NCBI RefSeq assembly: GCF_018873765.1
Contig: NC_057925.1
Location: forward strand, 48,143,010 to 48,207,009
Source: Telopea speciosissima
Lineage: Eukaryota; Streptophyta; Magnoliopsida; Proteales; Proteaceae
DNA: 64,000 bases
Direction of reading: 5' to 3'
A program made the translations under genes and the position numbers. The notes under the pieces were generated by a model. It had not been told where the DNA came from and ran no database searches. It saw only the letters and a list, made by a program, of their open reading frames with translations. Below, one piece after another: positions 1,350 to 60,470 of the stretch. How positions within the stretch are numbered: the first letter of the stretch is position 1; every line of letters starts with the position of its first letter.

Positions 1350-1538
1350 TTGGACCCTGATCTTCTAGTGCCGAGCTGCCCGGCAGGATCCTACAGTCAA
1401 GACACAGTAAGACGGGGAATGATCGTCTTATCTTTGCCCGAGCGCCTTACCCAAATGGGGGTAAGGTGGTCATTTACCGTCTTGCTGTGTCTTGACAGTA
1501 GATTCCTACCAGGCAGCTCGGCAGTAAAGGATCCAAAT
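1350..1538. mobile_element. GC-rich hairpin (foldback) element in duplication unit A
   Basis: Two arms of about 75 nt (GCCGAGCTGCCCGGCAGGAT and its near-perfect reverse complement) flank a core carrying the GGTAAGGTGGTCATT type motif. TGGGAAATT occurs on both sides (1341-1349 and 1539-1547). Unit B has the empty site with a single TGGGAAATT (around 9618), which supports insertion after the duplication. Confidence 0.8.
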
Positions 1539-2001
1539 TGGGAAATTGCTCCAATTATCCTCCATTTGTATTGCCTGCTTTATGCAAATTGGTATTTCAT
1601 TGCAGTGAGAAGGTTCTCTTAGCCACCAGGGGAAGGCATGTTCCCCTCTTTCTCTCTTTTCTTTTTATATGAAATGACCTTGTTGTCCTCTTAGGTATGA
1701 AACGATTTCCATTATATTTTTTTGGTGTGCTCCTTTTTGCTGTTTGTTTAGAGAACCCTCTCCTTTTATTGCAATTTGAATTCTCAAAGATTCAAGAGAT
1801 TTTCCAAAACACATGAATTTGTGAAAATTTCACACATTTATTAGACTAATATGAAATTTTAAAATTCTCATGATCCAAACAGACATTATAACAAGACACT
1901 ATACCAAGCCAACTATACTTATATGAATTCAAGGAGAGCTTGAATCCTTTCCTTAATTCTTTACAACCCAAATTAACTATTGGGCTCCAATCCCCTCTTC
2001 C

Positions 2002-2958
2002 CTATATAACATAATCAGACCAGTCTGATAGAAAAGAAGTGTGATCCATGGTGATACCAGGGAGCTTATTCATCCTAAAGGGCTTCTCCCTCCCACCAAG
2101 TATTCTCGCCGGATTTCCGACTGCGGTACTCCTTTCAGGTATGTCCTTGAGAACCACCGACCCGGCACCGATCTTAGCCCCTTCACAAACCCTAACATTA
2201 CCCAAAACTTGAGTCCCTGCACCAACCAACACTCCATCCCCAATCTTAGGGTGTCTATCTCCAGATTGCTTGCCTGTACCCCCTAAGGTAACGTTATGTA
2301 GGATCGACACATTGTTCCCCACCACCGCCGTCTCACCGATCACAATACCGGTCGCATGATCCAACAAAATGCCTTGCCCGATCTTCGCACCCGGGTGGAT
2401 ATCCACCGCGAAAACCACAGAGACCCGGTTCTGAATTAAAAGGGCCAATACATTCCGGCCTTGAGACCACAACTTATGGGCAACCCTATGGGCTTGGCAA
2501 GCCTGAAAGCCCTTGAAATTGAGAAGGCAGTGTACGTAACTGATACAAGCCGGGTCACGTTCCTTAGCCGCCCTAAGATCAGCCCGAATCGCCTTCCTGA
2601 TCTCCGGGTCTTCTTTGAAGACGCCATAGAAGACCCCAACCAAGGTGTCTGAATGAAGGGTGGAATTGCTCAACTTTGTGGCTAAGTGTGTCGCTAGAGC
2701 ACTTTCCATGGAATCATGGGCTAGAATTGTACTGAAGTAATAGCTTGACAAGATGGGTTCTTGCTCCACATCCCACTGGGCTTCTTCTCGCACCTTCACC
2801 CACACCTCATCATCATCGTCTTCTTCCTCTTCTTCTCCGCCGTGGCCACAGCCGCCGTGGACGGTGGAGAAGTAAACGTACTTGTAGAGAGGATGATCAA
2901 CGATCTGGGTTCGATCAGAATCGAAGCCGTTATCGTCGCAAGGAGACATTTTGGTCAT
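2002..2958 (-). CDS. SAT: Serine O-acetyltransferase, copy A (single exon, 318 aa)
   Basis: Transfers acetyl from acetyl-CoA to L-serine, giving O-acetylserine for cysteine synthesis; plant forms bind O-acetylserine (thiol)lyase. One uninterrupted reading frame. After a short N-terminus comes an acidic run (about residues 42-51), the helical N-terminal SAT domain (about 55-180), then the left-handed beta-helix of hexapeptide repeats (about 184-285). By family comparison with bacterial CysE, visible active-site residues are Asp186 (VDIHPGAKIG), His201 (LLDHATG) and His236 (GDRHPK). The C-terminus SDWSDYVI is the conserved tail that docks into the partner lyase. The start at MTKMS is about 57 nt below a TATA box, and no in-frame ATG lies upstream. 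With no presequence it resembles the cytosolic type. The gene is intact and presumably active; it is a tandem duplicate of the gene at 10327-11373. Confidence 0.95.
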   Translation of the reverse strand: MTKMSPCDDNGFDSDRTQIVDHPLYKYVYFSTVHGGCGHGGEEEEEDDDDEVWVKVREEAQWDVEQEPILSSYYFSTILAHDSMESALATHLATKLSNSTLHSDTLVGVFYGVFKEDPEIRKAIRADLRAAKERDPACISYVHCLLNFKGFQACQAHRVAHKLWSQGRNVLALLIQNRVSVVFAVDIHPGAKIGQGILLDHATGIVIGETAVVGNNVSILHNVTLGGTGKQSGDRHPKIGDGVLVGAGTQVLGNVRVCEGAKIGAGSVVLKDIPERSTAVGNPARILGGREKPFRMNKLPGITMDHTSFLSDWSDYVI

Positions 2959-3014
2959 GTTGTTGAAGGTCTTGCGGTGGTTTCCTGGGAGTGGAGGTTG
3001 AGGAGGATGGTTTG

Positions 3015-3022
3015 CTTATATA
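3015..3022 (-). promoter_or_regulatory. TATA box of SAT copy A
   Basis: TATATAAG on the minus strand, about 57 nt above the MTKMS start codon. The same promoter block (TATA followed by a shared AACCATCCTC-type leader) is present upstream of copy B, so it is conserved between the duplicates. Transcription would start near 2985, leaving a very short leader. Confidence 0.6.
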
Positions 3023-3279
3023 GACATAAGAGGGAGGTGTGTTTGCTTTTTCAAGTTTTTGGGGCTTTACCAATTTTATTTTCTTTTCGAAGCAGTAACT
3101 CAGTAAGTAGGTAAAGTGTGACTGTAATTAAACTTTAAAAAAATAGTCGAAAAGAACGAAAGGGACGGATTCCTATTGTGACTTCTTTGAGAGTGACGTA
3201 ACATGCCACGTTTAAAGTTTTTTTTTGGGAGAATCTCACGTTTAAAGTTACGGTTAAAGAAAAGTACTTTAAACTCAAA

Positions 3280-4895: not shown

Positions 4896-4903
4896 GTTCT
4901 AAC

Positions 4904-7511: not shown

Positions 7512-7633
7512 ACCCGAACAATGTTATCATCTTCAGTCACCCCCGCCAACGCAAACATAACATTCCCAGTAGAATCCCAACCAATGGCACCATACCCACT
7601 CAAGGTTCCTCGAATGGACCCGTCACAGTTGAC

Positions 7634-9399: not shown

Positions 9400-9556
9400 C
9401 ATATTCCAGATCAGCTACCCACACATGAGCAAGGCGGAATGTACCACCTTACCCTTGCCCAAGTGCGGTAAAGCGGTATTTTCCACCGTGCTTGTGTGTG
9501 GGGGGCGCATGATAGTACCGGGCAGGCGAAAGTAGAGGAGTCGGATGCATCAAAAC
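9400..9556. mobile_element. GC-rich hairpin element in duplication unit B
   Basis: The arm CCCACACATGAGCAAGGCGG pairs with CCGTGCTTGTGTGTGGG; the core reads ACCACCTTACCCTTG, a motif shared with the other hairpins. It is absent from the matching position in unit A (around 1255). Ends and target duplication could not be set exactly. Confidence 0.6.
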
Positions 9557-10177
9557 CCCTATGAACCAAACATAATCTTAGACAATTTTAGGTGGACCTC
9601 TCGATTCCTATTGATCATGGGAAATTTCCCCATTATCATTTGTATCGCCTGATTCATGTAAATTCGTATTGCATTGCAGCAAGAAGGTTCTCTAAGCCAC
9701 CTGGAAGGCATGTTCCCCTCTCTCTCTCTTCTCTTTATATGAAATGACCTCGTTGTCCTCTTAGGTTTGAAACGATTTCCATTATATTTTGTTTGGTATG
9801 CTCCTTTATGCTTTTTGTTAGAAAACCCTCCCCTTTTATTGCAATTTGAATCCCCCAAAATTCAGAGATTTTCCAAAACACATGAATTTGTGAAAATTTC
9901 ACACATTTATTAGACTAATATGAAATTTGTGAGAATTTTAGAGTTAAATTCTCATGATCCAACAGACATTATAACAAGACACTATAACAAGCTACACTTA
10001 TATGAATTCAGGGAGATCTTGAATAACAAGACACTATAACAAGCCAACTATACTTATATGAATTCAAGGACAGCTTGAATCCTTTCCTTAATTATTTACA
10101 ACCCAAATTAACAACAGAAAATATATAGGACATATATATATAGACTATTTGGCACCAATCTCCCCTTCCCTATATAA

Positions 10178-10323
10178 TGGATAAAAATCCTCTGCAGTAC
10201 CGCCGGGTGCGCGGTACACATCCAGCGGCACAACAGAGGCCATGTGTGCCATGTGTGGCATGTGGCCTCTGCTGTGCCGTAGGATGTGCACCACACACCC
10301 GCCGGTGCTTCAGAGGATCTTGG
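10178..10323. mobile_element. Hairpin element directly after the SAT copy B stop codon
   Basis: A 146-bp foldback: TGGATAAAAATCCTCTG at one end, CAGAGGATCTTGG at the other, with long pairing GC-rich arms meeting at AGAGGCCA/TGGCCTCT. It is flanked by an 11-bp duplication TCCCTATATAA (10167-10177 and 10324-10334). Unit A has one TCCCTATATAA at the same place. The duplicated bases include the SAT stop codon, so the reading frame was kept. Confidence 0.85.
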
Positions 10324-10326
10324 TCC

Positions 10327-11373
10327 CTATATAACATAATCAGACCAGTCAGATAGAAAAGAAGTGTGACCCATGGTGACACCAGGGAGCTCATTCATCC
10401 TACAGGGCTTCTCCCTCTTGCCGAGTATTCTCGTCGGGTTTCCGACTGCCGTAGACCTTTCGGGCACTTCTTTGAGCACCACCGACCCGGCACCGATCTT
10501 AGCCCCTTCACAAATCCTAACATTACCCAAAACTTGAGTCCCTGCACCCACCAACACTCCATCCCCAACCTTAGGGTGTCTATCTCCAGATTGCTTGCCT
10601 GTGCCCCCTAAGGTAACATTATGTAGGATCGACACATTGTTCCCCACCACCGCGGTCTCACCAATCACAATGCCGGTCGCATGATCCAACAAAATACCCC
10701 ACCCGATCTTCGCACCCGGGTGGATATCCACCGCGAAAACCATAGAGACCCGGTTCTGAATTAAAAGGGCCAACACAGTCCGGCCTTGAGACCACAACTT
10801 ATGGGCCACCCTATGGGCTTGGCAAGCCTGAAAGCCCTTGAAATTGAGAAGGCAGTGTACGTAACTGATACAAGCCGGGTCACGTTCCTTAGCCGCCCTA
10901 AGATCAGCCCGAATCGCCTTCCTGATCTCCGGGTCTTCCTTCAAAACGCCATAGAAGACCCCAACCAAGGTGTCTGAATGAAGGGTGGAATTGCTCAACT
11001 TTGTGGCTAAGTGTGTCGCTAGAGCACTTTCCATGGAATCATGAGCTAGAATCGTAGTGAAGTAATAGTTCGACAAGATGGGTTCTTGCTCCACATCCCA
11101 CTTGGCTTCTTCTCGCACCTTCAACCACACCTCATCATCATCATCTTCTTCCTCCTCTTCCCCACCCTTTCCGCCACCGCGAGCGGTGGAGAAGTTAACG
11201 TACTTGTAGAGAGGATGATCGACGAGCTGGGTTCGATCAGAATTGAAGCCGAGAGGGTCTGTTATGGACATTTTGGTCATGTTGTTGTAGCTCTTGCTCT
11301 TGTTCTTACGGTGGCAGTTGCGGTGGATGGTGGTGTGTGGGAGGACTGGTGACCCAAGAAGTGATGCAGACAT
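10327..11373 (-). CDS. SAT: Serine O-acetyltransferase, copy B (single exon, 348 aa, N-terminally extended)
   Basis: Paralogue of copy A with the same reaction and domain order: acidic run, helical domain, hexapeptide beta-helix and the SDWSDYVI tail. Predicted catalytic residues Asp216, His231 and His266 are intact. Two differences stand out. First, the frame opens 31 codons earlier (MSASLLGSPVLPHTTIHRN...), adding a Ser/Thr/basic stretch without acidic residues that could be a weak organelle-targeting peptide; the start homologous to copy A is the internal MTKMS at 11280. Second, the residue just before the catalytic His strand is Trp (KIGWGILLDH) where copy A has Gln. The stop codon sits inside the target duplication of a hairpin element (10178-10323), which begins 3 nt after the stop. 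Which start is used is undecided. Confidence 0.93.
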   Translation of the reverse strand: MSASLLGSPVLPHTTIHRNCHRKNKSKSYNNMTKMSITDPLGFNSDRTQLVDHPLYKYVNFSTARGGGKGGEEEEEDDDDEVWLKVREEAKWDVEQEPILSNYYFTTILAHDSMESALATHLATKLSNSTLHSDTLVGVFYGVLKEDPEIRKAIRADLRAAKERDPACISYVHCLLNFKGFQACQAHRVAHKLWSQGRTVLALLIQNRVSMVFAVDIHPGAKIGWGILLDHATGIVIGETAVVGNNVSILHNVTLGGTGKQSGDRHPKVGDGVLVGAGTQVLGNVRICEGAKIGAGSVVLKEVPERSTAVGNPTRILGKREKPCRMNELPGVTMGHTSFLSDWSDYVI

Positions 11374-11389
11374 AAGAGGTGGTGATCAT
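11306..11389 (-). promoter_or_regulatory. Upstream ORF overlapping the SAT copy B start
   Basis: A 27-codon frame (MITTSYVC...QLPP, then TAA) opens 16 nt before the MSASL start, in another frame, and stops 26 nt before the internal MTKMS ATG. It lies below the TATA box, so it should be in the leader. Copy A lacks this whole segment. Inference: ribosomes that translate it would skip MSASL and could reinitiate at MTKMS. Confidence 0.4.
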
Positions 11390-11446: not shown

Positions 11447-11568
11447 GACATTAGAGGTGTGTTTGCTTTTTCTAGTTCTTAATTAATTGGGGCTTTACTA
11501 ATTTTATTTTCTTAATTAATTTACTCCATTAAGCAAAGCAGTAGGTACTAGGTAGGTAAACTAGGAAT

Positions 11569-11722
11569 TTTTATCTGCTGCTGTAACTGGAGCCCTGCTG
11601 TGCGCATCGTGCGGCGCAGCAGCGGCCATGTGGGCACAGCGGGCCCCACTGTACACACATGATCGCTGCTGCATCGCACAATGTGCACAGCAATGCTCCA
11701 GCTACAGCAGCGGATAAAGATC
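11569..11722. mobile_element. Hairpin element in the SAT copy B promoter region
   Basis: A 154-bp foldback: left arm TTATCTGCTGCTGTAACTGG, right arm CCAGCTACAGCAGCGGATAA, with inner arms around GTGCGGCGCAGCAG / CTGCTGCATCGCAC. It is flanked by a perfect 14-bp repeat GGTAAACTAGGAAT (11555-11568 and 11723-11736). Unit A keeps a single related copy and no hairpin. Confidence 0.85.
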
Positions 11723-11894: not shown

Positions 11895-12850
11895 TTTGGA
11901 ATTTCCTCCCGATCACAGACTTGGAAACTTATGAGCACATGTGCTATTGAATTATGTCACATGTGATATGGAAATTGCGTAAGATCTCCAAGCCGACATG
12001 GAATTTATTCTTCTATGTAAAACTAATATTTGATGTGATATTATTCTTTATATTAATTAATTCAGGTTGTAATCCATTTATATCTCCAATGGAGAATCAA
12101 ATCAAACTAAGGGGAATTAATTAAAAACGCCCCTTTTCCCTGTTGGCCTGTATTCCTGGGGGATAAACCTTATCATTCAAGTACAAGGCATAAACCTTTT
12201 CACGTGAAGGAATACGAGCAAGCAAATACCTTAATTTGTTTACTCCTGAAACAAGAATGAGCCAATCAGTTTTCAGTTTTGAACTAGGATGATATGCGTG
12301 ATAAAAAAGAAAAAGATTTATCTTTCCATCATTATGCCTAGTTAAATATAATGTTTTACTATTTACCAAACAGTAATATATTGGTTAGTTCATGTGATAG
12401 AGGACCACACAAGCATCTCATTGGTACAATTCAAGCTTAAAATGAATTTAGCGAGTAGCTAAAATTACAAAAGATATTATTTTGTATTTTTATATTCATC
12501 TCCATTCGATTACATTTTGATAATTTTACTAAAACTTTGAGTTAGAGTTTGAGCAACTTATCTTCCTTACGGTGGTCTAAAATCTAGTCGTTGAGATGTA
12601 TATAGGCTCCTCTATCACATGGACTAACTCATGTAATGCCAAATGAAAATAGTGAAGTATTATATTTCACTAGGCATAGTGACGCCTAGACAGACCCAAA
12701 TTATAATGCCTCTTGATGGTTAGCTGAATTAAAATGTCTCAATGACGCTTGGCTGCAGCGTTTGTTGACTAGTGTTTTTGGATATCAAATTATTTAGTAT
12801 CCAAAAAACAAAGGAAAAATATTGTCACGATGTTAGTGTGCATATTCTAT
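11895..12850. other. AT-rich stretch, no recognised gene
   Basis: One 82-codon frame on the minus strand (12121-12369) resembles nothing I know and lacks gene context. Otherwise AT-rich with no supported feature. Confidence 0.4.
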
Positions 12851-12855
12851 CATTA

Positions 12856-13027
12856 TCACCTACAATTCTAACACCTTCCAATTCCCTACAATCCCTCACA
12901 TGGGAGTGAAATGACCACTTACCCACTGCCTTGAAAAGTGTGTCCAGGCAATCGGTAAATGGTCATTTTAGCTCCCATGTGAGGGATTGTAGGGGGATTA
13001 GAGGGTGTCAGAATTGTAGGAGATAAA
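12856..13027. mobile_element. Hairpin (MITE-like) element
   Basis: Long terminal inverted repeats: TATCACCTACAATTCTAACACC pairs with GGTGTCAGAATTGTAGGAGATA, continuing inwards through CCTACAATCCCTCACATGGGAG and AATGACCA..TTACC. The centre is about 30 nt. Flanks show only a weak possible repeat. Confidence 0.7.
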
Positions 13028-14344: not shown

Positions 14345-14520
14345 TAGGGAGAAAGAATGCCACCCCGTCGCGCAGTGCATGCTGCCCTTGTGCTCAGACA
14401 CAAGGGCGTGTGTAATGATTGTCAAACCCCTTGGAAAGATAGAAATGACTAGGGGTGCGGTGGTCAATTTGCGCACCCCTGTGTCTAGGCGCGGGGGTGG
14501 CGTGCGCTTGGTGGAGTTTT
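14345..14520. mobile_element. GC-rich hairpin element
   Basis: GGGAGAAAGAATGCCACCCC ... GGGGGTGGCGTGCGC outer pairing, with inner CCTTGTGCTCAGACACAAGG and CGCACCCCTGTGTCTAGGCG segments. The ends resemble the GGGAGAATGTTCTCTG group. Confidence 0.55.
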
Positions 14521-15178
14521 ATCACCAAGTAGCCTCATGAATATTGTCTATAAATATAAGGGAAAATGATTTGCCACCTTGCCTATCAAACATCATCTCA
14601 CATTCTTTTTCTTTTCTGACAATTCTTCTTAGCCCAAACGCTTGTATTTGATTCGACCCTGCAACTTGTGATCTTACAAATGGATAGAGGAAAAAGAAAA
14701 AAAAAAGAAGGATTGAAGATGAAGAAGAACTCTTGTGGATTTGGGGCTCCACTAACGATTGCACTCTTTCAGTATTTTCAGTATCTTTCTCTCTTTCCAA
14801 CTCACAGACCCTTCTTATAAGAGTCCAAGAGCCGTTGGACAGAGCAATGGCTCTTTCCGCAATCATGGAATCGTCCACCCTTAATATTTCTCTCCATTCT
14901 GTTGAGGTCTCTTGACCTGGTCTTTAGGGATGAAGCTGAGGCAATGTGGCCACATCATCTAACATCTCCCAGTTGGCCATGTTGGCCGAATTCATATTTC
15001 CATTCTTCACATTCCCATCTCCAGGAACTTCTATCATAAATTTTTTATTTCCATTCCCATTTCTAGGAACAATAAAAAAAAATTCATTCTGCTGACGGGG
15101 AACATTCAGTTCCTTTTCCAAACTTAAACTGTTCTAAGTCCCATATATATTTCGAACATTTGAGTTCAAATTCCAGAC

Positions 15179-16474: not shown

Positions 16475-16580
16475 TACCGTGTTCGGGCAGGGGTAAGACA
16501 GACATTGCACGTGGCGCTCTGTCTGGGTCACACAGGCCGCTATGGGCAGGGCGCCGTAGAAGATCATGATCCTAGGGCTT
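16475..16580. mobile_element. Half of a GC-rich hairpin element
   Basis: Matches the right arm of the complete element at 21355-21545 (GGCGCTCT.TCT..G, CACAGGCCGCTA.GGG, GATCATGATCC). The left arm is missing and replaced by the tandem array. Confidence 0.6.
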
Positions 16581-16831: not shown

Positions 16832-18051
16832 GAGCAAATTACATGCACCCCATGGTGTTTGAAACAATAATTGAACAACCCCCGTAGTTTCACCATTTAG
16901 GTGGACCTCCCCTGGACTATTGTGGGGCTTACAAATAAGCCTTTTCTGTTAAGTTGAAACTGTTAGGTGTAGTTAAACATTTAAAAATGACCATATTACC
17001 CTTCAATATTTGACATTGACCATTTTACCCTTATGAGACATAACCCATAACCAAAATCCATCTCCCCCAAAACCTTCCATTGTCATCTTCCTCCATCTCT
17101 CTTCTCCGGCAATCTGCGAAGAAAGAAATCATCGCTAGGCAAGACTGAAGTGAAGCAAACATCCTTTTTTTTTGTTATAAGCTTCCCTTTGCTAATTTAA
17201 ACTCCTTGTTGATCTCTCTTTCTCCTAACAAACCCATCATGAACGCAATGAGAACACACAGCTGAGAACCGAGAACAAGAAGCTCCTACCATAGGACATG
17301 AGATACAAAGAAGCCCTAATTAGTAATGCCTCATACCCCAACTGTGGTGGTCCAACAACTATTGGTGAGATGTGCTTTGATGAGCATCATTTGAGGATTT
17401 CGGGCACTGCTGCTAAGTATGTGGGAGGAAAGTCGTTGGTCCCTTACTCTCTTCTCAACCCTCAACGTTCCCTAGGGGAATAGAGCCAAAAGCCTTGGGG
17501 TTTATTTCTAAACCTTCTAGGGAAATTGCTATTGTTATCATGAATCACATTAACCTTGTTGAGATTCTCATGGATGTGGTAGGTTCCATAATTTGCTTTC
17601 ACCACCAGCATGGTATGTAGACGTACAACTTCACAAATAAATAGAGAGAAAGAGGGGTAGTGGCCGGAGAGACTAAACTTCGTCAGAGGGTGGCTGGCCC
17701 AGGGAATGTTCGCCGGAGATGATTTGGTCTTCTGCAACCTTCGTTGGAACTGGTGTGTAGTAAAACCCTAAATTGATTAAGGATTTTTCGTTTGAAGAAC
17801 ATGATAAATAAGGATAAAATGGTACTTCAATTAAGTCACTGATATAAAAGGGTAAAACTGTCTTTTAAGTAACTATCACCTCAAGGAAGATTTTTTTTGA
17901 ATCACTGTCAGCTACTTCTCTCGTCTTTGCGGGTCGTCTGGTCCATTATACATTTATATACTGTCAGCTATCAGGGGGTTATACGAAAATGGTGAAACTA
18001 AGGGGTGTTCTGTTATTCTTTCTAACACCAACGAGCGCATGTAATTTGTTC
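16832..18051. mobile_element. Mutator-like non-autonomous element carrying host gene fragments (Pack-MULE)
   Basis: Terminal inverted repeats of about 75 bp: GAGCAAATTACATGCACCCC at the left, and the reverse complement of the right end begins GAACAAATTACATGCGCTCG and continues to match through TAGTTTCACCATTT. A 9-bp flank repeat TTTTTCTTT (16823-16831) / TTTTTCATT (18052-18060) differs at one base; 9 bp is the Mutator signature. No transposase. The centre holds HD-ZIP IV gene fragments (17236-17578). Confidence 0.85.
17236..17578 (+). pseudogene. Captured HD-ZIP IV (ANL2/PDF2-type) homeobox gene fragments
   Basis: First piece: HHERNENTQLRTENKKLL, a stop, then [31 protein letters not shown], and a jump to [20 protein letters not shown]. 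This is the leucine-zipper-loop-zipper segment, missing the usual IENARLREEID stretch. Second piece, directly after: [27 protein letters not shown], which belongs to the START domain, so a large block between them is gone. After ..MDV comes GTAGGT, where family members are expected to have an intron donor, suggesting capture from genomic DNA. Not a working gene. Confidence 0.85.
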
Positions 18052-18124
18052 TTTTTCATTGTATAAAAAAACGTCTTTCCTCTTCATTTTCTCTTTAAAA
18101 AAAAAAAAGGAAAAAGATCTTTGT

Positions 18125-18275
18125 TCGGTAGTGTGGCCTATGCTAGCACTCCCATGAGTCTATCTGTCTCCTCTCCCATGTGAAAAGACGCCTCTGCCTC
18201 CCTTGTTTTAAGGAAGAGAGAGATAAACACAAGGGAGTACTGGCATAGGCCACGCTCCCATATAGAAAACTGCTT
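18125..18275. mobile_element. Hairpin element
   Basis: TAGTGTGGCCTATGCTAGCACTCCC pairs with GGGAGTACTGGCATAGGCCACGCTCC. The middle holds GAGAGAGATAAACACA, also found at 13408 beside a partial copy. Confidence 0.6.
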
Positions 18276-18279
18276 CTCC

Positions 18280-19210
18280 TAAAAATATTTATTTTTCCAA
18301 AAAAAAAGAAGAAGGTTTATGGAAACGGTAAAAGTATATTCATTCACTTTTTACTTTCCCTTCCAACTAGGCGCAGTTTTCTTTAGTGGGTGTCATTTCT
18401 TAATTTTCACACAAATGGCTGCTTACTTTTTACTGTGCGCACGCCATTGTTGACCAAACTCACACACTGGTCCCAATATCATTAGATGTCGGAAATCTGG
18501 AAATTGCTTTTCTGGAGTCTGAATTTTCCAACAATCAGATCGTCAACGGCGCAACTGTCCGTAGCGGCCTGTGCGGCACATGGGCCACGCGTGCAATGAA
18601 CGATTCAGCTCTGTCGACAACTGATTCAAAATCGCTCCTCTTTATTTGTCGTCTAATGAATCTTTTATTTGTATTTTATTTATTTTTATTTTTATTTGAC
18701 AACCTAATGAACTTGGGATTTGGGACATGTTTAATTCGATACAAACTAGATTTTATTTCTTGCAAAATCAGGTTTAAGTAGGGGAGGAGAAAGAGGACAT
18801 TCACATTTCCATGTATTTACATAAATACCCTTTGTTGAACTCATTCTAATTCGCTATCCTATCTTTTGAGGCAAGGATTTTAAACTCGGAATGGGGGTCA
18901 CACCGGTTTTTTTTTTTTTTTTGTAAATTATGATTCGGATTAGATCAATCAAAATTGGTCCCAAAAACCCTAGAATCAATCCTTTAAATATAAAACCCGG
19001 TGACCAAGTCCCAAAAACCTAGAACTAGCTGCTCTTAAATGTTCGGAATCGAGATCAGTCATAACAAATTCAACCATCTGATTCCGATTTTTTAAACCAT
19101 GTTTTGAAGCAAAAGTAGCAAAAGCTTTTTTTTCACCTTGATGAGGAGAATCTAGTAATTGGGGTGTCATTATTTTCTCTATCCCTTCATTATACCAAGC
19201 TTGAAATGCC
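18280..19210. other. No gene; half hairpin at about 18540-18600
   Basis: 18540-18600 carries GTAGCGGCCTGTGCGGCACA, the arm motif of the elements at 19915 and 21355, without a partner arm. The rest is AT-rich with no supported feature. Confidence 0.4.
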
Positions 19211-19226: not shown

Positions 19227-19377
19227 GGATTCGACTCCTTTTCGGCACACATCGTGTAGCTGGGGAGCCTCGATCCACAGGCCAACACACATCCCGACGT
19301 ATTGGCGTATGGACCAAGGACTCCGCAATAGCACAATGTGCGCTGCACATCGTGCCACGCGGAAGAGGAGCAAATCC
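19227..19377. mobile_element. GC-rich hairpin element with perfect 9-bp target duplication
   Basis: Begins GGATTCGACTCCTTTTC and ends GAAGAGGAGCAAATCC. Flanked by TATTTTTGT on both sides (19218-19226 and 19378-19386). Inner segments (GGAGCCTCGATCCACAGG.. / ..ATGGACCAAGGACTCC) match the element at 21135-21240. Confidence 0.8.
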
Positions 19378-19914
19378 TATTTTTGTAGTCTCATCCAACC
19401 ACCACAAATTCCATATACAATACATACTATTATATTCTTTGAATGCCCATCCAATTCATTCTAATTAGCTACACTTCATCTTTTTGACATAAAATTTTTC
19501 TTCACTGAGTGAGAGAATCTAACCATTGGTTTGTCAGTATTCCATCTGTACCTACCATACAAAACATGAAATGCCCGCGACAGTATTCCTAAAATCTCCT
19601 CCAACCACCAAAACCTGTAGATTAAGAGATTCTTTCTTCATCGAGACACCCGGTCCATCTTCAGATAAGGACCCCTTTTCCCATCAAGTAATTAATTCCG
19701 GTTTAGGTTATTCTTCAAGGTTTAATTTGAGTTAAGTGGTGTTATGAGCTACGACAAAGCTTCTTGTCCTTCCAAAACAGCAATCAATCCTTTGTAGAGG
19801 CTACGCTTCAAGTCCATTGAAAGAGTTTGTTCCAATGACTAGAACAAGACAGTCGACATTCCCCTATTAGGAATACTTTTGTCTAATAATGTTTGCATGC
19901 ATGTGTCTATGTGG

Positions 19915-20070
19915 GATCCAGATCTTCTGTGGCACACTGCCCATAGTGGCCTGAGCGGACGTAATGCAATGACCACTTTACCTCCACTCGGGTAAGGTGC
20001 TCGGGCTGACATTGTGCACGGTGCTGTGTTTACGCCGCTCAAGCCGCTATGAGCAGCGCACCGCAAAGGA
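19915..20070. mobile_element. GC-rich hairpin element
   Basis: Arms GGCACACTGCCCATAGTGGCCTGAGCGG and the complement of CCGCTCAAGCCGCTATGAGCAGCGCACC. Core ATGACCACTTTACC..GGGTAAGGTGCTCGGGC is shared with other hairpins in this window. Confidence 0.7.
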
Positions 20071-20079
20071 ACTGAATTG

Positions 20080-21134: not shown

Positions 21135-21240
21135 GATGGAGATGTGCGCTGGAGGACTCCGATCCACACTGTCGCACGCATCCCGATTCAGTGGCGTGTG
21201 GATTGAGGCCTCCCCAGTCGCGGGAGAGGAGCTCAATCCT
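21135..21240. mobile_element. GC-rich hairpin element
   Basis: GGAGGACTCCGATCCACACTG pairs with GTGTGGATTGAGGCCTCCCC around a short loop; same group as 19227-19377. Confidence 0.6.
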
Positions 21241-21354
21241 TCGTTGATAGGTCCGGAAGAGAGAGAGTGTCAGGAAAAGTTGAAATACTATAGATCCATA
21301 AATTCGAATCAAATTATTACCAAAAAAAAAAGAAAAAGAAATTCGAGTCAAATC

Positions 21355-21545
21355 AGACAGAGCTTCTACGACGCCTTGCCCGTAGCGGCCTGTGTTGCCC
21401 AGGTAGAGCGCTGTGCGCAATGATAGCCTTACCCCTGTTCGGGCAAGGCACTCGGGCAGGGCTAAGGAGGACATTGCATGCGGCGCTCTATCTAGGCTGC
21501 ACAGGCCGCTACGGGTAGGGCATCATAGAGGATCATGATCCGTCG
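21355..21545. mobile_element. Complete GC-rich hairpin element (GCCCGTAGCGGCCTGTG group)
   Basis: Two arms of about 80 nt, near-perfect complements (GCCCGTAGCGGCCTGTG.. / ..CACAGGCCGCTACGGGTAGGGC), closed by CCTTACCCCTGTTCGGGCAAGG. The right end GATCATGATCC is shared with 16475-16580. Confidence 0.75.
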
Positions 21546-24560: not shown

Positions 24561-25292
24561 TCACATCACCTGCATCACAGTTGATATCGATATTGATACC
24601 TCTTTGTATTAACTAATTTTTACCCTTATTTTTGTTTTTTACCCATTTAGCATAGCACATTTAGGATAAAATCCTATAATTTCTCATGTGTACACAAAAC
24701 AGATGTGTAACAATGACAATTCTGGTTTACCAAAAAAAAAAAACAACGACAACTCTTGAAAATGACATAATGAAAAATATAAACTTTAAATAAAACAAGA
24801 AGCAATCACAATTCACAAAAAATTTATGTGTGAGATTAATTTTCATGAATGTAATGGTGCGGTTTAGTTTGTGTAAATGAGATGTTTTCATGGATATACT
24901 TTAGAGGTGCCATTCATATATACATTCCCTTAAGTTTGTGTGCTTCTTTGATTTTGATAAATAAAAAAGGAATGCTACTGAGCTAGTCTAGTTATTCCGC
25001 ACCAAAAGTTTCCTTTTCCACCATTAGATGTGACAATTATAGAATTCTTCCCCTGGCCCCTCTTTGCACATGAATAAAAATTTCTTCCAAAAATATGCCT
25101 TTCTATACACTTGTTAACATTCTCTTTTGACAAAAACAAAAAATAACATTCCTTTTTTATGTTTGTGTGCTTCTTTCATTTTGATAAATAAAAAGGGAAT
25201 GCTAGTCTACTTATTCCCCCAAAAGTTTCCTTTTCCACCATTAAATGTGACAATTCAAGGATTCTTCCCCTCTCTTTGGACATAAATACAAA

Positions 25293-25418
25293 GGAGAATG
25301 TTCTTTGTGCCCATTGCACCCAGGCACATGGGTCTGCCACTCTAGGGGCAGGATGGACATTGCATCCACCCCCATGTGTTTAGGCATAATCTGTACTACG
25401 GCACAGAGAACAGCGCCC
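25293..25418. mobile_element. GC-rich hairpin element (GGAGAATGTTCT group)
   Basis: Starts GGAGAATGTTCTTTGTGCC and ends GGCACAGAGAACAGCGCCCC. It sits in repeat unit 2 where units 1, 3 and 4 read straight through CACATGAATAAAAT. Flanks TAAATACAAA / TAAATAAAAT suggest a short aged duplication. Confidence 0.75.
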
Positions 25419-26254
25419 CTAAATAAAATTACTTCCAAAAGTATGTCGTTCCATACACCGATTAACATTCTCTTTTCACCAAGAAAAAAAAGAAAAAAAA
25501 GTAACATTCTCTTAAGTTTTATAAAAAAACAAAAACCCATTCCCTTAAGTTTGTGTACATCTTTGATTTTGATAAACAAAAAAGAAATGCTACTCTAATT
25601 ATTACCCCAAAAAGTTTTCACCACTAGTCCCCTAGATGTGACAATTCTAGGATTCTTTCCCTCTCTTTGCACATGAATAAAATTACTTTCTATACACTTA
25701 TTAACATTCTTTTTTCACCCCCCCCCCCCAAAAAAAAATCTAACATTCTCTTACATAAAATTCGCCCAGTTATAATCATAAAGCTCTGTTTGGCTGCACG
25801 AAAAAGGGAAGGGAAGTGAATTTTTCTAAACTAAAAAAAAATAATTTATAATCAGTCCCCCATATGATGTTATCTCTAACTCTAAATCATTACGTATTTA
25901 GTTATTGAGTACCATTTTAGTTTGCATCCAAATCCCTTAGGCATGAAAAGGAAAATAAAAATTACAAGTAAAGAGTACCATTGCTAAATATAGTAAAAAA
26001 ATCAATAATTTATTTAATCATGTTGGGTAATGATTAAGAAGTTGCCTTTTAAGATTTAAATATTTTAACTTCCCTTTCCTATAATTTTCCTTCAATCAAA
26101 CGGAGCCTAAGTATAGGTTCCATTTTGAGATAAGTGACATGAAAGAAGAAACAAAAACACACCCACACACACATTTCAATGTGATGTTTAGTTGGAAGTA
26201 GAATTGTTGGGGGGGGGGGGGAGAGAAAATTTTACTCCGAACATTGACATTTTT

Positions 26255-30522: not shown

Positions 30523-30647
30523 GGGAGAATGTTCTCTGTGTCGCAGCGCAGCGCCTGCGCCCAGGCACATGGGGGTGGGCGCAATGACCACCCAACCCCC
30601 ATGTGCCTGGGCACAGGCTGCGCTGCGGCACAGAGAACAGCGCCCCC
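30523..30647. mobile_element. GC-rich hairpin element with perfect 9-bp target duplication
   Basis: Starts GGGAGAATGTTCTCTGTG, ends CACAGAGAACAGCGCCCCC; arms CGCAGCGCAGCGCCTGCGCC / GGGCACAGGCTGCGCTGCGG around CCCATGTGCC. Flanked by AAAGATTTA (30514-30522 and 30648-30656). Confidence 0.82.
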
Positions 30648-40116: not shown

Positions 40117-40127
40117 AATCATGGGAA

Positions 40128-40316
40128 TAGGAACGCTAACTGGTATTGTGTGTGGGCCTGTACCTGGGCCTAGACATAGCCCGGGCTTGGCGCAGGTACA
40201 CGCCACACCCCTTGGATCTTTCCACCTTTCCGGGGGTGTGGTGTTCTTTTAACATCGGATTGTGTCTCGGCACAGGTACACACTCACACAGCACTTGTTA
40301 GTGTTCTTTCTCCCAT
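40128..40316. mobile_element. GC-rich hairpin element beside the LINE target duplication
   Basis: AGGAACGCTAACTGGTATTGTGTG pairs with CACACAGCACTTGTTAGTGTTCTTT; inner GGTACACGCCACACCCC / GGGGGTGTGGTGTTC arms. Ends resemble the GAGAAAGAACGCT group. Confidence 0.6.
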
Positions 40317-40934: not shown

Positions 40935-42045
40935 TAGAAAATAAAATACTAATGAATCAAATTGGCCGGTTTTTTATAATTAAATCCCTAATAATTTCAT
41001 ATTATAGAAAAAAATTCAACATGGTTATTGGTTTTATTGTGGAAGAACATATTATATATTGCATTCGAATTTGCTTGTAAAAGTAAAATCAGCAATTGTT
41101 GAATTAGAAATGTTGGAATTATGTGTTCATCAAACAAGAATTAGTTTCAAGTTCATTTATGCTATATTATTTTATTCATGACATATAATTCATTCACGGG
41201 CTTATAAGATTGTCCTTATGTTTTCACCTAAAACATTTTCTCGACTAGGGATAGGATCAGCCATTATAGTCATATGGTTGTTGCATTGTCTACTACTATG
41301 AATGTTGATTACTTGATTCCAAGGTACAAATGTAAGTACACATTTTGTATGTGTATAGAATAAGAATCATGTGAGACTCTTGCATGTAATACTGTTTTTT
41401 TGTTTGGTAAAAAATGTATTATGTTATTTTTTGAAGGACGAGATTTTTACTTGTTACTTTATTGGCCCTTTGACCTGAGAGATCCTTATTGTTGTGATGC
41501 AATATTATGGATTTTGGTACACTAATGGTTGATGTCCTTTGGATTATATATCGGTGCACTGGATTCACAATAGAGTATCATGGATGAATGAGATGCTCAA
41601 CATAGAATCCACTACTCTTCATTGGGAAATATCAAGGAGAAAGAATATGTGTTTGATCAAACGAGAATCTAGATCCAATGTCAATCTTGTAAATGGTTTA
41701 CAAAGTTATTTTATTTTATCAAATTTATTAGAACTATTGTTTGAAAGTTGTTTCAAATTGTTTTTTTGGGTCCGATCATCATCACAGAGTCTTGGTATAG
41801 ACTTGTACAATGAATTGGGGTTATGCAGTATTTCTCTATATACCCTATATTTTTCATTGTGTGATATTGTTTAGCAAAGGGTCATTTGCGTAATTAGAAT
41901 ATTTTAATTATGCTTGAGTAATTAAATGAGAAAATTAAATATGTTAATTATCTAATTGATTATTGACTTTATCGTTTAATTTTTTTTTTGGTAAGAGTCT
42001 ATATCGTTTAATTAGATTAAATAGATATGGACAATATATTTTAAG
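40935..42045. other. AT-rich stretch, no recognised gene
   Basis: A 111-codon plus-strand frame (41539-41874) has no features I recognise and looks like chance in AT-rich DNA. Confidence 0.4.
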
Positions 42046-42049
42046 AGAA

Positions 42050-42222
42050 AGAGAACGCTACCTGGCCACGTGTGATGCGTGGCCCCTGCGTCCAAACACT
42101 AGACCGTCGCGCCCTCAGGGATTTTTGCTTTTTCATCAGGGTGCGACGGTTATTTCACACAGTCTGTGTCTAGGCGTAAGGGCTGCGCGCTGCACGCAAC
42201 CAGGCAGCATTTTTCTCTCATA
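42050..42222. mobile_element. GC-rich hairpin element
   Basis: GAGAAAGAGAACGCTACCTGG pairs with CCAGGCAGCATTTTTCTCTC; inner GACCGTCGCGCCCTCAGGG / CATCAGGGTGCGACGG. Flanks ATATTTTAA / ATATTTAAA may be an aged 9-bp duplication. Confidence 0.65.
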
Positions 42223-43200: not shown

Positions 43201-43473
43201 ATTCTCAATAGCCCATAATTTACTTAAAGTGCTCAAATTGCAAAACTTAGGCTTTCTCTCTCGAATGATGTAGTTTTGTTACTCTCTTCTTAATTTTTTA
43301 ATTTTTTTCTCATAGAAAATAAAAGTTTCTTCAAAGGTTTAAAATATCAGTAACAGGTATTGTATCAGAATGGTGATATTAAGAGAAGTATTGTATTGTA
43401 CCAGATAGAAACAAGATACAATAAATACACATGGAAATGATAAAGAAACAAATGGAAGTATTTAGAATGTGAG

Positions 43474-43612
43474 TCGATGTTCTCTGCGCCACAGCGCAAG
43501 CTGCTCCGTCCTAGACACATGGAGACGGCATTTCCGCCATTTAGGGGTGGTCATTTCGCCCACCCCCATGTGTCTGAGCGTATTGTGCGCCCCTGGCACA
43601 AAGAACATTTTT
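43474..43612. mobile_element. GC-rich hairpin element (TGTTCTCTGTG group)
   Basis: GATGTTCTCTGCGCCACAGCGCAAGC faces GTGCGCCCCTGGCACAAAGAACATTTTTCC, with CACATGGAGACGG.. / CCACCCCCATGTGTC inside. Confidence 0.65.
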
Positions 43613-43934
43613 CCTTAAGATATATGGATAAGATAGTTTTGAAGCACAGAACAATATAAATTTATATCGTAAAATATGAAAGGTATAAAAAAGAAAACAA
43701 AGTAGGATGAGATCAGTGCATTCAATTTTTTTGGGGGTAAATAGATAAGTGCATTCAATTGATTATATATAAAGAATAAGGTTTCTTACATGTATTAATA
43801 TTATAAAAAATAAAAAAAAACTATCATATCAATTAGTATCGACAGATATGGAAGGAATTGAAAAGAAAAAAAAAGTTAAAACCTTGCATTCTTCCATGGG
43901 TTACAATATGGCTAAGGAGAAAGGGGTTCAAAAC

Positions 43935-45089: not shown

Positions 45090-45222
45090 GGGGCATTGTT
45101 CTTTGTGCCACGATGCAGGCTGCGCCAATGCACATGGGGACAGACGCAATGACGACCCTCCCCTTGCATAGTCTGCCATATGCCTGGACGCACCCTACGC
45201 TAGGCAGAGAGAACATTCTCCC
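45090..45222. mobile_element. GC-rich hairpin element upstream of ADA2
   Basis: GGGCATTGTTCTTTGTGCCACGATGCAGGCTGCGCC faces CCTACGCTAGGCAGAGAGAACATTCTCCC; same group as 30523-30647. It ends about 320 bp before the ADA2 start codon, so it is in or near the promoter. Confidence 0.7.
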
Positions 45223-51500: not shown

Positions 51501-54500
51501 TGATGCAAAGGATGGTGTTTTTCCACAGATTGAGTCATTTTCAAGTCTTGAATGGAAGCCCTAAGTTGATTTGTGGGAAAAAAAACTGGTTTAGAACCAA
51601 AATTTCAAGGTTTAGGGAGTGGTTGGAGAGTGGTTTTTCTGCCTCTGTAGTTGCTGGGTCGAAAAGAAGGCTTTTTGGTGACTTTTAAGTGACTGTATCG
51701 ACAGTATCGATATGTATCAGCCAATACATATCAATACGTATTAAAGCCATAAAGTTGGGAATGAAGGACGTATCGATATGTATCAACCGTGTTGTATCGT
51801 ATCGTATCTGCCCGTATCAGCCGATACAATTTATACAGTTTGTTTTGTTTTAAAGATACATATCTCACCGTATCGTATCGATACCCTGCAATACCGATAC
51901 GTATCGGCCGATACAATACGATACAGCAAGATACTTAAAACAGTTTGAAATACAGAGACTTTGAAATACAATTTCATTTGTTCTTACTGAATCAGAGACT
52001 ATATTCAACAGTAAACAGAAATAGAAACAACAGAACACAGATCCAAGAGAAGAGGATCTGCAGGAGAAGAGAAAGAAGATAAATAAGGAAGAAGAGAGGG
52101 ACAAAAGGATAACCAGATCAGAGGGGTTTTGAAGATCTTACTCAATCTCTAACCATATATTTATTAGTCTTATAAAAATTCTATTATTTGCAAGTAACAC
52201 CCCTGACTAATGATTAATTGCAGATAAGCTTTAATTAACACCCCTGTGATATATTTCTTAACATCAATGACTTGTCTTTTTCGATGGATCTTTACACCTA
52301 CACTTATTGGTCTAGTTGTCTTTGGTATTGCATCCTATTACTTAAAACGCTTAGATTAGAAGTTCGATTTCTTTCTTCAAATAGGTCACAAATTCTTACA
52401 TGCTTCTGACTGCCTCAGGATTTCCTATGTTTGGGGACCTTACACTGAAGGAAGAGTCTCCTTTCTCCCCTTCAAGAGTCAAGTACGTTTTTTTTTGGGT
52501 ACATCAGTTCTTCAATTTGGCCATTAAGTCCTCGCATGCTAACTCACTTGGCTGTGATTGCTCAGGATTGAAGATTTGAGTAAAGAAGCTCCAGCAGGTC
52601 GTTCCCCATCTAGCTTAAGTGCAGGTATATTGAGGGATATTCATTACTAGCTGTTTCTGTTAGTGGCTTGTCTGTCTCTTCAAATAATTAGAGGATGTGT
52701 TAGTCATACTGCTTGAAACATCATACTCTCTTCTGTTTCAGATGTGGATTCTGGAGTTGGTTCTGGCAACACAAATCTGATGGCAACAAGTTCTGTTAAG
52801 AAGGCATCAAACATGGCCAAGGTTAAAGATGGTCCTGATTCCGTTAAAGTGGAAGGTATGATTTGAAGACACTCCTTTGTAAATTGTATGGTTCCTTTCT
52901 TGGATAGTTGTATATTGCTTCGGATCTTTAATAACGTCCTCCCACTTTCGTTGCTTTGGTTTAATAATCCATCTTCTGTGTTATCTCCAAAAAGGACTGA
53001 TGTTGGATGTTGACAATCTGACTGAAGCTATAAACAATTTTTATTAAATATAATAGGCATTGTAATAAAACAACTCACTAGTGTTTTAAACTTTTATTCT
53101 TTCTTCCAATGTATTTTAGTTTGGTATTGGCAGTCCGACTGTTTGGAGTAGTTCAAACTGTGATGAAATTTGCAAACAGAGTATGTAAGTATTTACCGGG
53201 GGGGGGGGAATTTATAGTATTATAATAACATAGAAGGGAATGGAGCTTTGGAAGGGTCAATAGAATAAAACAACTGGCCAGTAGATTATAATAAAGTATG
53301 TAGTCATTTACGGGGGAAAAAACATTATAGTATTATAACAATAATATAGAATTATCAGCATATATGGACTTAAAATAGAATTAAATTGAGAAGCAAGATG
53401 TGTAGCAAACCCAAGCAATTGGGATTGGGCTTAGTTAGTTGAGTAGATTATAATAATACAGAAGGTCATGGAGCTTTGGAGAATGGTCAATAGAATAAAA
53501 CAACTGGCCAGTGTTAAAACTGTGATTTTTGCATTCACATGTTGTTTGTGAGTGAGATCCCACAATGCTCTCTGAAATATTATTTTAGTACACCTCTTAA
53601 TGGTTTGACCATGAGAATCTTAATGGATCATTTACCAGTCAAAGCTTCTTGAGCCTGAAAACTGTTGCGAGTTAGGTCTGGACTGACACCTAGGTTGCTG
53701 AATTGGGAAGTGACTCAACTTATGAGTCACTGGGATCAAATCTTGGGTGATGTTATTTAACTTTTAAAATTTACAAGTGTCTTAAAATATAAATTAAGGT
53801 AAAGTGAGATATCTTCACCTGTCCGGTCATAGCGATATATCGCGTATGGTATCATTTTGATATGGATACAATATGGGTCAATCTCGTATTGAATCGATAA
53901 TGAGTTGGTATTGGATCAGTATTGAAAGTGGATTTGGTTGCACAAAGAGGAAGAAAAGAATGGAAGTTTGAATGAAAATAAAAATTAATAAGAATTTATA
54001 AATAATAAAAAAGATAACAAAATTGATAACTTTTGAATAAAAAATAGGAAAGATTGACCAGCCCTTGGATCCTCTCCAGCACACATGTCAGATGGGGAGA
54101 TCCCCAGCCACCCCCTGCGCTGGAGAGGATTCAAATCCCTTCACCTCTGCATCAAAAAGTGGAAGAAGAACAGTCAGTCTGTCATGCTTTTGGATCAGTC
54201 ATTGTCATCGACTCTAAAGTGCTTCAAAAATTGGAACGAATTAATAAACTGCCCGCTTTTTCGATGCACTGCCTGAGGTGGATGATTGAACTGTTTGGCC
54301 CGGGTTGGTGCTTCTTAGTACTTATCTGGTCAATTTGAATTTTCTTATAAAGGAATTATAAGATTTATGACTTCTCAATTAGTTATGGAGGTATTAATCT
54401 TCCCCTTCTTTGATTGCCTTACTAACCATATTTTCAAGTTTAGATTAGATTAATCTTATTGGTAGTTATAAGCCTTCACCTCTCTATGGAGAAGTTAAAT

Positions 54501-58563: not shown

Positions 58564-58564
58564 G

Positions 58565-60470
58565 GTCAATGAAAATTCTTTAATTCTTCGGATTGTAAAA
58601 TTATTATTATTATTTTTTAATTCTTCGGATTGTAAAATTTGTGTCCTGGTGTAGTTACTGTTTTTTTTTTTTTTTTTTTTTTTTAATCTTCATACCTGGA
58701 CTGGTTTATTGTTTCGTCTAGTAGGTCGGTCAATTTTAATTAGTGTTCTTTTGCCTCTTATTTTTTTGGTGGTTTATAACACTTTTGAGACATTTTTAGG
58801 AATTAATTGGCTTTGATAAAGGATCAATCAAGTTGTATAACAAAAGCTTGCTTGGTTTAACTTCTGTATACACCAGAGTTTTAGTAATCGGATCAGCATC
58901 GGCCAAACCGATCCCGATTTGATACTGATCCGGATAGCCCTGAATTGGGCTGGATAGTAAAGAATTGCCCCTGCTTTTTAATAAAAATCAGTTTTTATTA
59001 TCTTTTACCCTTAGGTTGTACCAGTGGATCAGTATCAGATCGGCCAAGAGTTGGGATAACCGTTCCTTGACCCTTCTCCCGTTTTTTTCAAGCCTTGTTG
59101 AATGAACATCACCCACAGACATGAACATCAAATAAAAGGACGAGTCAATTTCTCCATTTCTCTTGCAGCAAAAAGTTTGGGGCAAAAGGGTATTATGAGC
59201 AAAGTTACAGGTATTGATGTCGGCGGCCATACGATCCGGATACAGATCGGACGACTTTGGTCTGTGTCAGGTGAAAATTAGAGACATTTTTTGGTCAATA
59301 CTCCCAATTTGCATCAGTATCGTATGAGTAGTGAATTTCGAATTCTACATAACAAATATGATGATACCGATACCTTGATCCATGATTATGAGGCTTACAA
59401 GTGACATCGGAGGCAAGTCCAAGTATGTCTATTTTTATGATTAGTTGAATGGAGTATATCATATGGTAACTATTTTACTGAACAAAGGTTTGATAAATTA
59501 AAAAAAAAAGTTGAAAGTTTTTTTTTGTCGGTCAATTTCTCTTTTCCACTGGTGATGTGATCATATGATTGAACTCCTGAATCATCAATAACTCCCATCT
59601 CCTTTAGTATAAGGTCGAAAACACCTGACCTCTTGCTAATCCAAATGGTCAGATCTCTTAGATGTAGAGATTCCCTCATGGGTGAAAAGAAACTCAGTCT
59701 AATAAAAATTAGATAATTCATGACAATGGCAAACAAAGAGTAGGCCGTTAAGACTATGGCCGGGGCAGGTTCTCGTATAAGAACAGAGCTCAGAACAAAG
59801 AGTAGGCCGTTAAGACTATGGCTGGGGCAGGTTCTCGTATAAGAACAGAGCTCAGCCATTCAGATGGAATCCACTTCTCCTCTAGATTCCATCCGGATGG
59901 CCAAGCTCTGTTCCCGTACGAGAACCTGAGCCAAGCTCGTTGAGACTTTAGGTTGTGGCAACAGTTTTTCATCACATGAGTGAAGATTCTAGTCATTGGG
60001 ATGTCATTATTCCTCCTCCTTATTCTACGAAGTCTAAAATGCCCTTGGCACTATTCCAAGAGTCCCATCCAACCATCAGGGCACATGGATTAAGAGATTC
60101 TCGGTTAACCATAGGTGAAGGTAAACTCGATCCCCTTGAAGTTTTGGGAAAGAAAAAAAAAATCTTCGTCCAGCCATTATAAAGGTGGCTAAAGAGATCT
60201 TGGTTCACCGTAGAAGGAAAAACTTGGTCCTAACAAAAAGTAGTTAAATTTTTTTTCAGTTTTAGCTGAAGCATGCGTAACTGTGGTTCAAGAATTAAAC
60301 TTTGACTACTCTATCAACCACACCACCACCACCTTTCCTCCTTTCATCTCCACTCCCTTCTGTTACTTCCATCCATGGACCTTACCCCCAAGAATTCCAT
60401 TACTTGGAGAGGATTTAAAGGTGGAACAGCACCGGGTAGGGGGAGGCTGAATCTGAACAATGGCTATAAC
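58565..60470. other. Intergenic DNA 3' of ADA2
   Basis: A 36-bp local duplication AATTCTTCGGATTGTAAAATT (58580 and 58618), a long T run (58662-58684), and 58870-59390 with CGGATC/GATACCGATA words. 59766-59945 is a separate hairpin. No gene. Confidence 0.5.
59736..59945. mobile_element. Hairpin element with one arm tandemly duplicated
   Basis: GGTTCTCGTATAAGAACAGAGCTCAGCCATTC faces GGCCAAGCTCTGTTCCCGTACGAGAACC around GATGGAATC..GATTCCATC. The left outer segment (about 60 bp from ACAAAGAGTAGGCCG to AGAGCTCAG) occurs twice in a row with one base difference. Confidence 0.75.

Follow-up and report, generated by a model that had tools for sequence, protein, structure and literature searches.

Foldback hairpins in Telopea speciosissima, probable Mutator-type miniature transposable elements in which several families share an apex under different arms

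We analysed a 64,000-nucleotide stretch of the Telopea speciosissima genome (hereafter the window; C10:48143010-48207009 of the 823-Mb assembly), which holds a tandemly duplicated serine acetyltransferase gene and a population of short, GC-rich hairpins whose two arms fold back on each other. The gene copies occupy 2002-3015 and 10327-11385 on the minus strand, about 8.1-8.3 kb apart; a Pfam scan of ten window reading frames recovered serine acetyltransferase in one of them (the first gene copy only) and gave no match in the other nine. The hairpins were followed in the window, in 20 random 10-kb stretches that together with it make up 264 kb, and across the genome.

Self-alignment identified 53 foldbacks scoring at least 44 in these 264 kb, AT-rich ones counted, whereas a single dinucleotide shuffle of the identical sequence gave 0. 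Across 17 elements, mean GC content was 0.56 inside and 0.36 in the 300-bp flanks. The GC-rich foldbacks reported in an initial annotation of the window are therefore real, and the population is genome-wide. The positions listed there held up in part: the window contributes 12 of the 53 foldbacks and nine of the 19 full positions fall among these, the hairpin at 54060 scores 40, and nine others (14345, 19227, 19915, 21135, 25293, 40128, 42050, 43474 and 45090) lie below 44, being decayed or weak. Since foldbacks with a GC content of at least 0.40, a score of at least 40 and at least 50 bases number 10 in the 64 kb of the window and 26 in the 200 kb of random stretches, the hairpin load of the window is ordinary for this genome. 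AT-rich foldbacks of other kinds (GC 0.30-0.35), absent from the initial annotation, lie at 12329-12682, 31101-31243 and 40377-40465, and the top foldback of the random stretches (L026, 5880-6271; score 376, GC 0.31) is AT-rich too.

Grouping by sequence and ends yielded families A, B, E, F and G, the smaller families C and D, and several single elements. The end motifs of the families are GGGAGAATGTTCTCTG, GGGGCGCTGTTCTCTG, GGATCGTGATCTTCTAC, CAATACAGATCTTCTAC and GGGAAGCAGTTTTCTG. With up to three mismatches allowed, the arm word GCCCGTAGCGGCCTGTG occurs at 5 places in the window against 0 expected, the core GGGTAAGGTGGTCATT at 10 against 0.6, and the end GGGAGAATGTTCTCTG at 5 against 0.7, one of which (1605) is outside any hairpin. 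Two adjacent occurrences of the core, at 16986 and 17015 (window 16986-17030; 2 and 3 mismatches), also lie outside any listed hairpin. A first look across the genome returned 3538 candidates for A, 1367 for B, 3134 for E, 127 for F and 692 for G, 40 of each being scored; the F query, a single element, found copies mostly near 70% identity. The 20-base end GGGAGAATGTTCTCTGTGCC has 713 exact matches in the genome, and its backward control has 0.

Around the gene copies, a G-related hairpin (the 1350 type) at 1350..1538 carries the core at 1459-1474 in its apex, with TGGGAAATT duplicated on both sides; a decayed hairpin with a G/B-like apex has approximate limits 9405..9560; a hairpin of its own type at 10178..10325 has the ends GGATAAAAATCCTCTG and GGACCAAGATCCTCTG and the duplication CCTATATAA; and a hairpin starting GGAATTTTTATC at 11564..11722 (the 11569 hairpin) is bordered by GGTAAACTA. 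Exact 9-bp duplications, read from the flanks and without a null, also surround the hairpins GGATTCGACTCC...GGAGCAAATCC at 19227..19377 (TATTTTTGT) and GGAGATGTGCG...CTCAATCC at 21138..21239 (TTCGTTGAT). Family G is represented by a half hairpin at 16475..16573 (minus strand; 81% identical to 21452-21541, with a G1 end at 1 mismatch), a partial one with approximate limits 18540..18620 (plus strand; arm word at 18557-18573), a hairpin at 19914..20079 (plus strand; duplication GTCTATGTG/GTGTATGTG, 1 mismatch) and the element used as the G-family query, at 21354..21542 on the minus strand, which has no convincing duplication. E hairpins lie at 25292..25419 (plus strand; TAAATACAA/TAAATAAAA, 1 mismatch), at 30523..30647 (plus strand; AAAGATTTA), where the interior has the rarer of two orientations, T1, at 43471..43614 (T1, decayed) and at 45090..45222 (minus strand). 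The first and the last two of these align with other E copies, and the last two have no convincing duplication.

The same absence of a convincing duplication applies to the B-type hairpin at 12851..13026, the A-type hairpin at 18108..18279 (minus strand; 81-87% identical to other full A copies) and a decayed hairpin at 14347..14534, which has an F-type end at 4 mismatches. The F-family query at 42045..42219 (the 42050 hairpin; plus strand) is flanked by ATATTTTAA/ATATTTAAA with 1 mismatch and has relatives among the 40 scored genome candidates, and another element, F-type by its ends at 4 mismatches, occupies 40123..40314 with a poor duplication (2 mismatches). A short hairpin at 54060..54140 is of uncertain family. 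A C-type hairpin lies at 59823..59934 beside a tandem half-copy at 59732-59793; half of the hairpin is here duplicated in tandem over 59732-59855 (62 bp, 98% identical).

The flanks of the hairpins carry the record of their insertion. Where the end motifs set the ends, 9-bp duplications without mismatch border 23 of 60 E copies, 15 of 24 A copies and 5 of 21 G copies, and these counts become 34, 19 and 9 with at most one mismatch; the G copies L051 and L053 have one flank in common, and without L053 the G counts are 5 of 20 and 8 of 20. For F, 8 of 20 copies have an exact duplication and 16 of 20 one with at most one mismatch; the B counts are 4 and 9 of 20, some of these duplications being 10 bp long. 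In both families the ends were left free by 3 bases and no null was run. In E, the base beyond the 9-bp duplication matches in 1 of 34 copies on one side and in 0 of 34 on the other, and exact E targets contain 14 G or C in 207 bases. Among 18 elements of the window, four have exact 9-bp duplications (P 0.003-0.013 each) and four more have duplications with 1 mismatch that singly are not significant (P 0.07-0.13 each); once those of the 19227 and 21135 hairpins are added from the flank reading, 8 of 18 remain without one. Target duplications of about 9 bp, as in the Mutator superfamily, thus occur at set ends in A, E and G and at free ends in F and B. Lengths of 11 and 14 bp, proposed initially beside the 9-bp class, were rejected, as both reduce to 9 bp: the supposed 14 bp at 11569 is GGTAAACTA plus GGAAT, which is also the element's own start, and the 11 bp at 10178 is 9 bp with chance neighbouring matches. 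At one E copy (L035), the 12-bp flank word GTAAACTGCTCT is repeated about 16 bp past the right end of the hairpin, as if a piece had been added at insertion.

The tandem gene duplication moreover provides built-in empty sites for three insertions. Each of the hairpins at 1350, 10178 and 11569 is missing from the other gene duplicate, where the target, judged by eye, is uninterrupted though partly diverged, near 9618-9627, 1978-1998 and, in diverged sequence, 3085-3110, respectively. With 9-bp duplications and with empty sites for three elements, the hairpins are mobile, as had been proposed.

Majority consensus sequences, folded with RNA parameters, pair over nearly their full length in all five families, giving -142 kcal/mol for A (169 nt), -139 for B (178 nt), -112 to -123 for E (136-138 nt), -201 for G (189 nt) and -201 for F (190 nt). 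The arms, as in foldback elements, therefore account for almost all of the element. At their longest, unbroken runs of arm identity cover 79 bp in G (positions 8-86), 42 in E with the commoner interior orientation (E-T2), 37 in A, 26 in B and in E-T1, and 24 in F, and beyond these runs there are some mismatches or gaps; arm alignments are identical at 85 of 94 positions in G, 81 of 95 in F, 70 of 90 in A, 72 of 99 in B, 53 of 69 in E_T2C, 54 of 74 in E_T2G and 53 of 74 in E_T1. Over the outermost seven bases, mismatches between the two ends number 5 in G, 4 in E-T2, 3 in E-T1 and 2 each in A, B and F; in E-T2 and G the arms are identical from position 8. The source elements were thus long hairpins in which some outer bases do not pair. 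The proposal that the hairpin is kept holds across families, where consensus arms run identical and unbroken over 24-79 bp.

A consensus length of 136-190 nt would leave no coding capacity, and short size, inverted repeats, high copy number and target duplication together are the characters of miniature inverted-repeat transposable elements (MITEs). We consider it very probable that the hairpins are foldback MITEs of the Mutator superfamily. As such, this abundant population is ordinary in kind, with an apex common to several families, partly unpaired outer bases and repeated inversion of the interior in one family. No literature on these families was found among the titles listed in a search that left out most subscription journals, and the main text of a 207-genome MITE survey names neither Telopea nor Macadamia, Proteales or Nelumbo. 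At one locus (L128, C1:83481250-83481960), about 3.6 A-family hairpins follow one another head to tail at a period of 180 bp, with short spacers between them.

Likeness between families is concentrated at the apex. When element centres were compared, 9 of 165 pairs exceeded the 99.9% null, where 0.2 would be expected; the outer arms gave 1 such pair in 165. Whole-consensus scores exceed the largest of 300 shuffles for G-F (62 over about 120 inner bp against 32), G-B (44 over 58 bp against 24), E-F (41 against 36) and E-B (34 against 26). The 16-base core GGGTAAGGTGGTCATT has 845 exact matches in the genome, with 0 for the control. At 20 core loci, all on C1 and taken from 100 listed, we scored the arms outside the apex with a cut-off of 30; the best arm was of the 1350 type at six loci, G at five, B at three and E at one, and at five none reached the cut-off. 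The core thus lies under at least three clearly different arm types. One locus (L182) scores 28, 28 and 27 to F, G and the 1350 type, below the cut-off, and the almost identical sizes of G and F hint that divergence in place accounts for some of the modularity. The proposed sharing of modules accordingly survives as an apex common to families with different ends and arms, and not as free shuffling within E.

Within E, one arm position is either C or G. It is C on both arms in 20 copies, G on both in 26 and mixed in none, a further 10 of the 56 copies not being scorable; four of the 60 copies had been dropped beforehand, the first 20 were chosen by similarity to one hairpin, and the rest according to the letter of the left arm or to orientation, with no regard to the right arm. 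Comparing the arms within a copy with arms paired at random, we found no excess of in-copy correction in E-C (P 0.88, n=15), E-G (P 0.48, n=18) or G (P 0.56, n=20), and changes common to both arms numbered 0 against 1.4 expected, 5 against 5.4 and 24 against 26.3, respectively. In A, arms within a copy are slightly closer (0.084 versus 0.090; P 0.03, n=24), a weak effect, and pooling E gives 19 shared changes against 10.4 expected (P 0.009), 14 of the 19 being the C/G subfamily site. After insertion, E and G arms therefore decay independently, and the coupled change of the two arms is best placed in the source elements. A hairpin kept perfect within each copy, as the initial annotation envisaged, is not what three of the four sets show, and in-place arm correction was rejected as a general rule, with A as a weak exception.

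The arm letter is also strongly linked to the loop variant: of 100 listed rows 74 were typed, and the 64 of these that were scored (10 unscored) comprise 23 C-a, 0 C-b, 13 G-a and 28 G-b. A listed copy outside the typed rows, C2:76622690-76622767, has the C-b combination missing from this table. The reading that E freely recombines its arm and loop variants was thus rejected, with at least this exception; E modules are not freely shuffled, and exceptions exist.

As the two ends of E are unlike, the orientation of its interior can be read. Exact anchors placed 397 copies in orientation T2 and 138 in T1. Among 100 listed T1 copies, most bear an arm peculiar to them; 12 of this kind that were retrieved show a third end type, whose consensus GGGCTCA is present exactly in 7. 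In our reading, 7 of the 100 bear majority-type arms. A tree of interiors was built from 59 of 68 rows, 2 with unsure ends and 7 unclear, truncated or very divergent ones being left out. Orientation changes 9 times on it (bootstrap 8-11; 0 of 200 bootstrap trees with a single change), whereas shuffled labels need 19. When one long-branched row is removed there are 6 changes, and a single clade is rejected (p 6.1e-5). With one clade rejected and 6-9 changes, inversion of the E interior arose more than once, though it was mostly inherited.

How might such elements move and change? Since 9-bp duplications point to Mutator-type transposases, the helper machinery left unspecified in the initial annotation is narrowed to these, and no particular transposase is tied to the ends. 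The genome holds 826 candidates for the Mutator transposase domain, and all 150 that were scored pass the Pfam cut-off, although some may be domesticated genes. We suggest that Mutator-type transposases mobilise the non-autonomous hairpins in trans, leaving the 9-bp duplications, and that each family would have been spread by source elements, long hairpins with some non-complementary outer bases, whose inserted copies would then decay arm by arm. In the sources, template switching across the hairpin during replication may copy one arm onto the other, so that arm changes would appear on both sides together, and may sometimes invert the interior; this process is proposed because it would cover both footprints together, arm homogenisation and interior inversion. 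New families would change arms and ends while retaining the old apex, probably by replacement of the arms rather than by mere divergence. We lean, without great assurance, towards this explanation as a whole: Mutator foldback MITEs, decay per arm, template switching in sources and a kept apex. More tentatively, in a picture that we think on balance doubtful, the hairpin superfamily would evolve from the outside in, with the apex as its conserved module: template switching would remake the sources time and again, placing a new outer arm on either side and at times flipping the interior, so that families with new ends would appear while hairpin and apex survive.

Several observations weigh against this explanation. 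Many copies lack a clear duplication, and the very ends of G, GGATCGT and CAATACA, match at 2 of 7 bases, without a strict terminal inverted repeat. Within 264 kb, like end motifs paired with at most 5 mismatches and a 9-bp duplication of at most 1 mismatch, over spans up to 12 kb, were found only 124-189 bp apart, so that no larger, autonomous element with these ends was found there. Three of the nine apex pairs set L012:200 against B elements of its own group, leaving six clearly between groups; B-F merely equals the null maximum for whole consensuses, E-G likeness is not significant on the same measure (P 0.29), nor is that between A and any other family (P 0.05-0.46), A sharing its apex significantly with none of them, and G and the 1350 type are themselves related. 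Support for the E tree is poor, with 2 of 56 inner branches well supported; one row (L047) was re-oriented by hand, orientation is strongly clustered and so mostly inherited, and the T1 copies with T2-type arms were hand-picked, so that their frequency in the sample is not that of the genome. Elsewhere, inverted interiors were seen in 0 of 24 A copies and in 1 of 21 G copies, that one with uncertain ends. Finally, template switching is read from two footprints, and crossing-over between the arms would also invert the interior.

It is possible, though we think it unlikely, that these are ordinary Mutator MITEs and nothing more, the shared apex and arm words reflecting common descent with uneven divergence and the inversions ordinary recombination. 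The E subfamilies, with their linked arm letters and loop variants, are indeed largely tree-like, the length of the G-F likeness and the similar sizes of the two families are what divergence in place predicts, and L182 is intermediate between F, G and the 1350 type. Transposons, however, usually have ends more alike than their centre, and here the apex is more alike than the outer arms and ends. All 46 scorable copies have the same base on both arms at the C/G site, which would further need arm-to-arm copying or two matching source changes, and the combination missing from the E table does exist at C2:76622690.

Nested insertion, whereby a hairpin inserts into another's loop and the composite is afterwards moved by its outer ends, so that an old apex would come to lie beneath new arms with the palindrome intact, strikes us as improbable. 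It has a precedent, by eye, in L050, where a G hairpin sits inside a D-type hairpin with the duplication TACCTCACT, but this is one case among 20 fetched G copies; the aligned shared apexes show, by inspection, no leftover ends of an inner element, and the near-equal lengths of G (189) and F (190) fit replacement or divergence better than addition. Gene conversion correcting the arms of each inserted copy in place draws some support from the closer A arms and the pooled E excess, most of which is the C/G site, but the want of any excess of shared changes in E-C, E-G and G makes it very improbable. That the hairpins are immobile small-RNA or structured-RNA genes kept by the host we barely credit: the consensus hairpins are long and stable, but Rfam at gathering scores gave 0 matches in the window, on which ground the candidate was rejected, and the copies are dispersed and decaying, with 9-bp duplications and empty sites.

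To our knowledge, it is still open how foldback transposons hold two long arms alike despite sequence change. In the population preferred here as Mutator foldback MITEs rebuilt in their sources, many copies with readable 9-bp footprints, non-complementary ends that show orientation and a shared apex make the problem countable, since the coupling of the arms, the inversion of the interior and decay in place can be scored one by one. At such lengths, the hairpins may also give rise to small RNAs.

Known systems offer partial parallels. The Mutator/Foldback element Tm1 of root-knot nematodes, described with 8-10-bp target duplications in 45 of 53 cases and with asymmetric 7-bp motifs that lie outside the symmetric arms, beside the 9-bp duplication, resembles the Telopea hairpins in its foldback arms, 9-bp duplications and MITE-like members (PMC3169594). 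Its asymmetric outer motifs are matched in E and G only, where 4 and 5 of 7 bases differ, as against 2 of 7 in A, B and F. Tm1 arms, however, consist of 13-15-bp tandem repeats, of which none were found in one G and one E copy, and Tm1 belongs to a different kingdom and has an identified transposase, whereas the Telopea hairpins have no linked one; this comparison is by description, not by sequence (PMC3169594). Closer in host, the Prunus Mutator MITE Falling Stone (FaSt) is likewise a short non-autonomous plant element with long inverted repeats, 9-bp duplications and a place in AT-rich regions, but its repeats span 82 bp of 349 and leave a long middle outside them, whereas the Telopea hairpin is nearly the whole element; the part of the FaSt description used here makes no mention of a shared apex or interior inversion (PMC12071656).

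The two footprints that we ascribe to source elements are the same as those reported for template switching. Switching between inverted repeats, described in yeast, leads to arm homogenisation and spacer inversion (PMC8604942), and RNA genes show loop inversions and paired changes (PMC8794818). These cases are known from coding DNA and RNA genes (PMC8604942, PMC8794818), whereas the Telopea case concerns a repeated transposon family; the word transposon does not occur in the main text of the former report, nor transposable in that of the latter. Mutator-like elements (MULEs) with multiple long inverted repeats and Pack-MULEs likewise have remodelled long inverted repeats, some of them multiplied (PMC3310237). 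The multiplied repeats of those elements are mostly in tandem (PMC3310237), whereas in Telopea the outer arms differ in pairs around a common apex.

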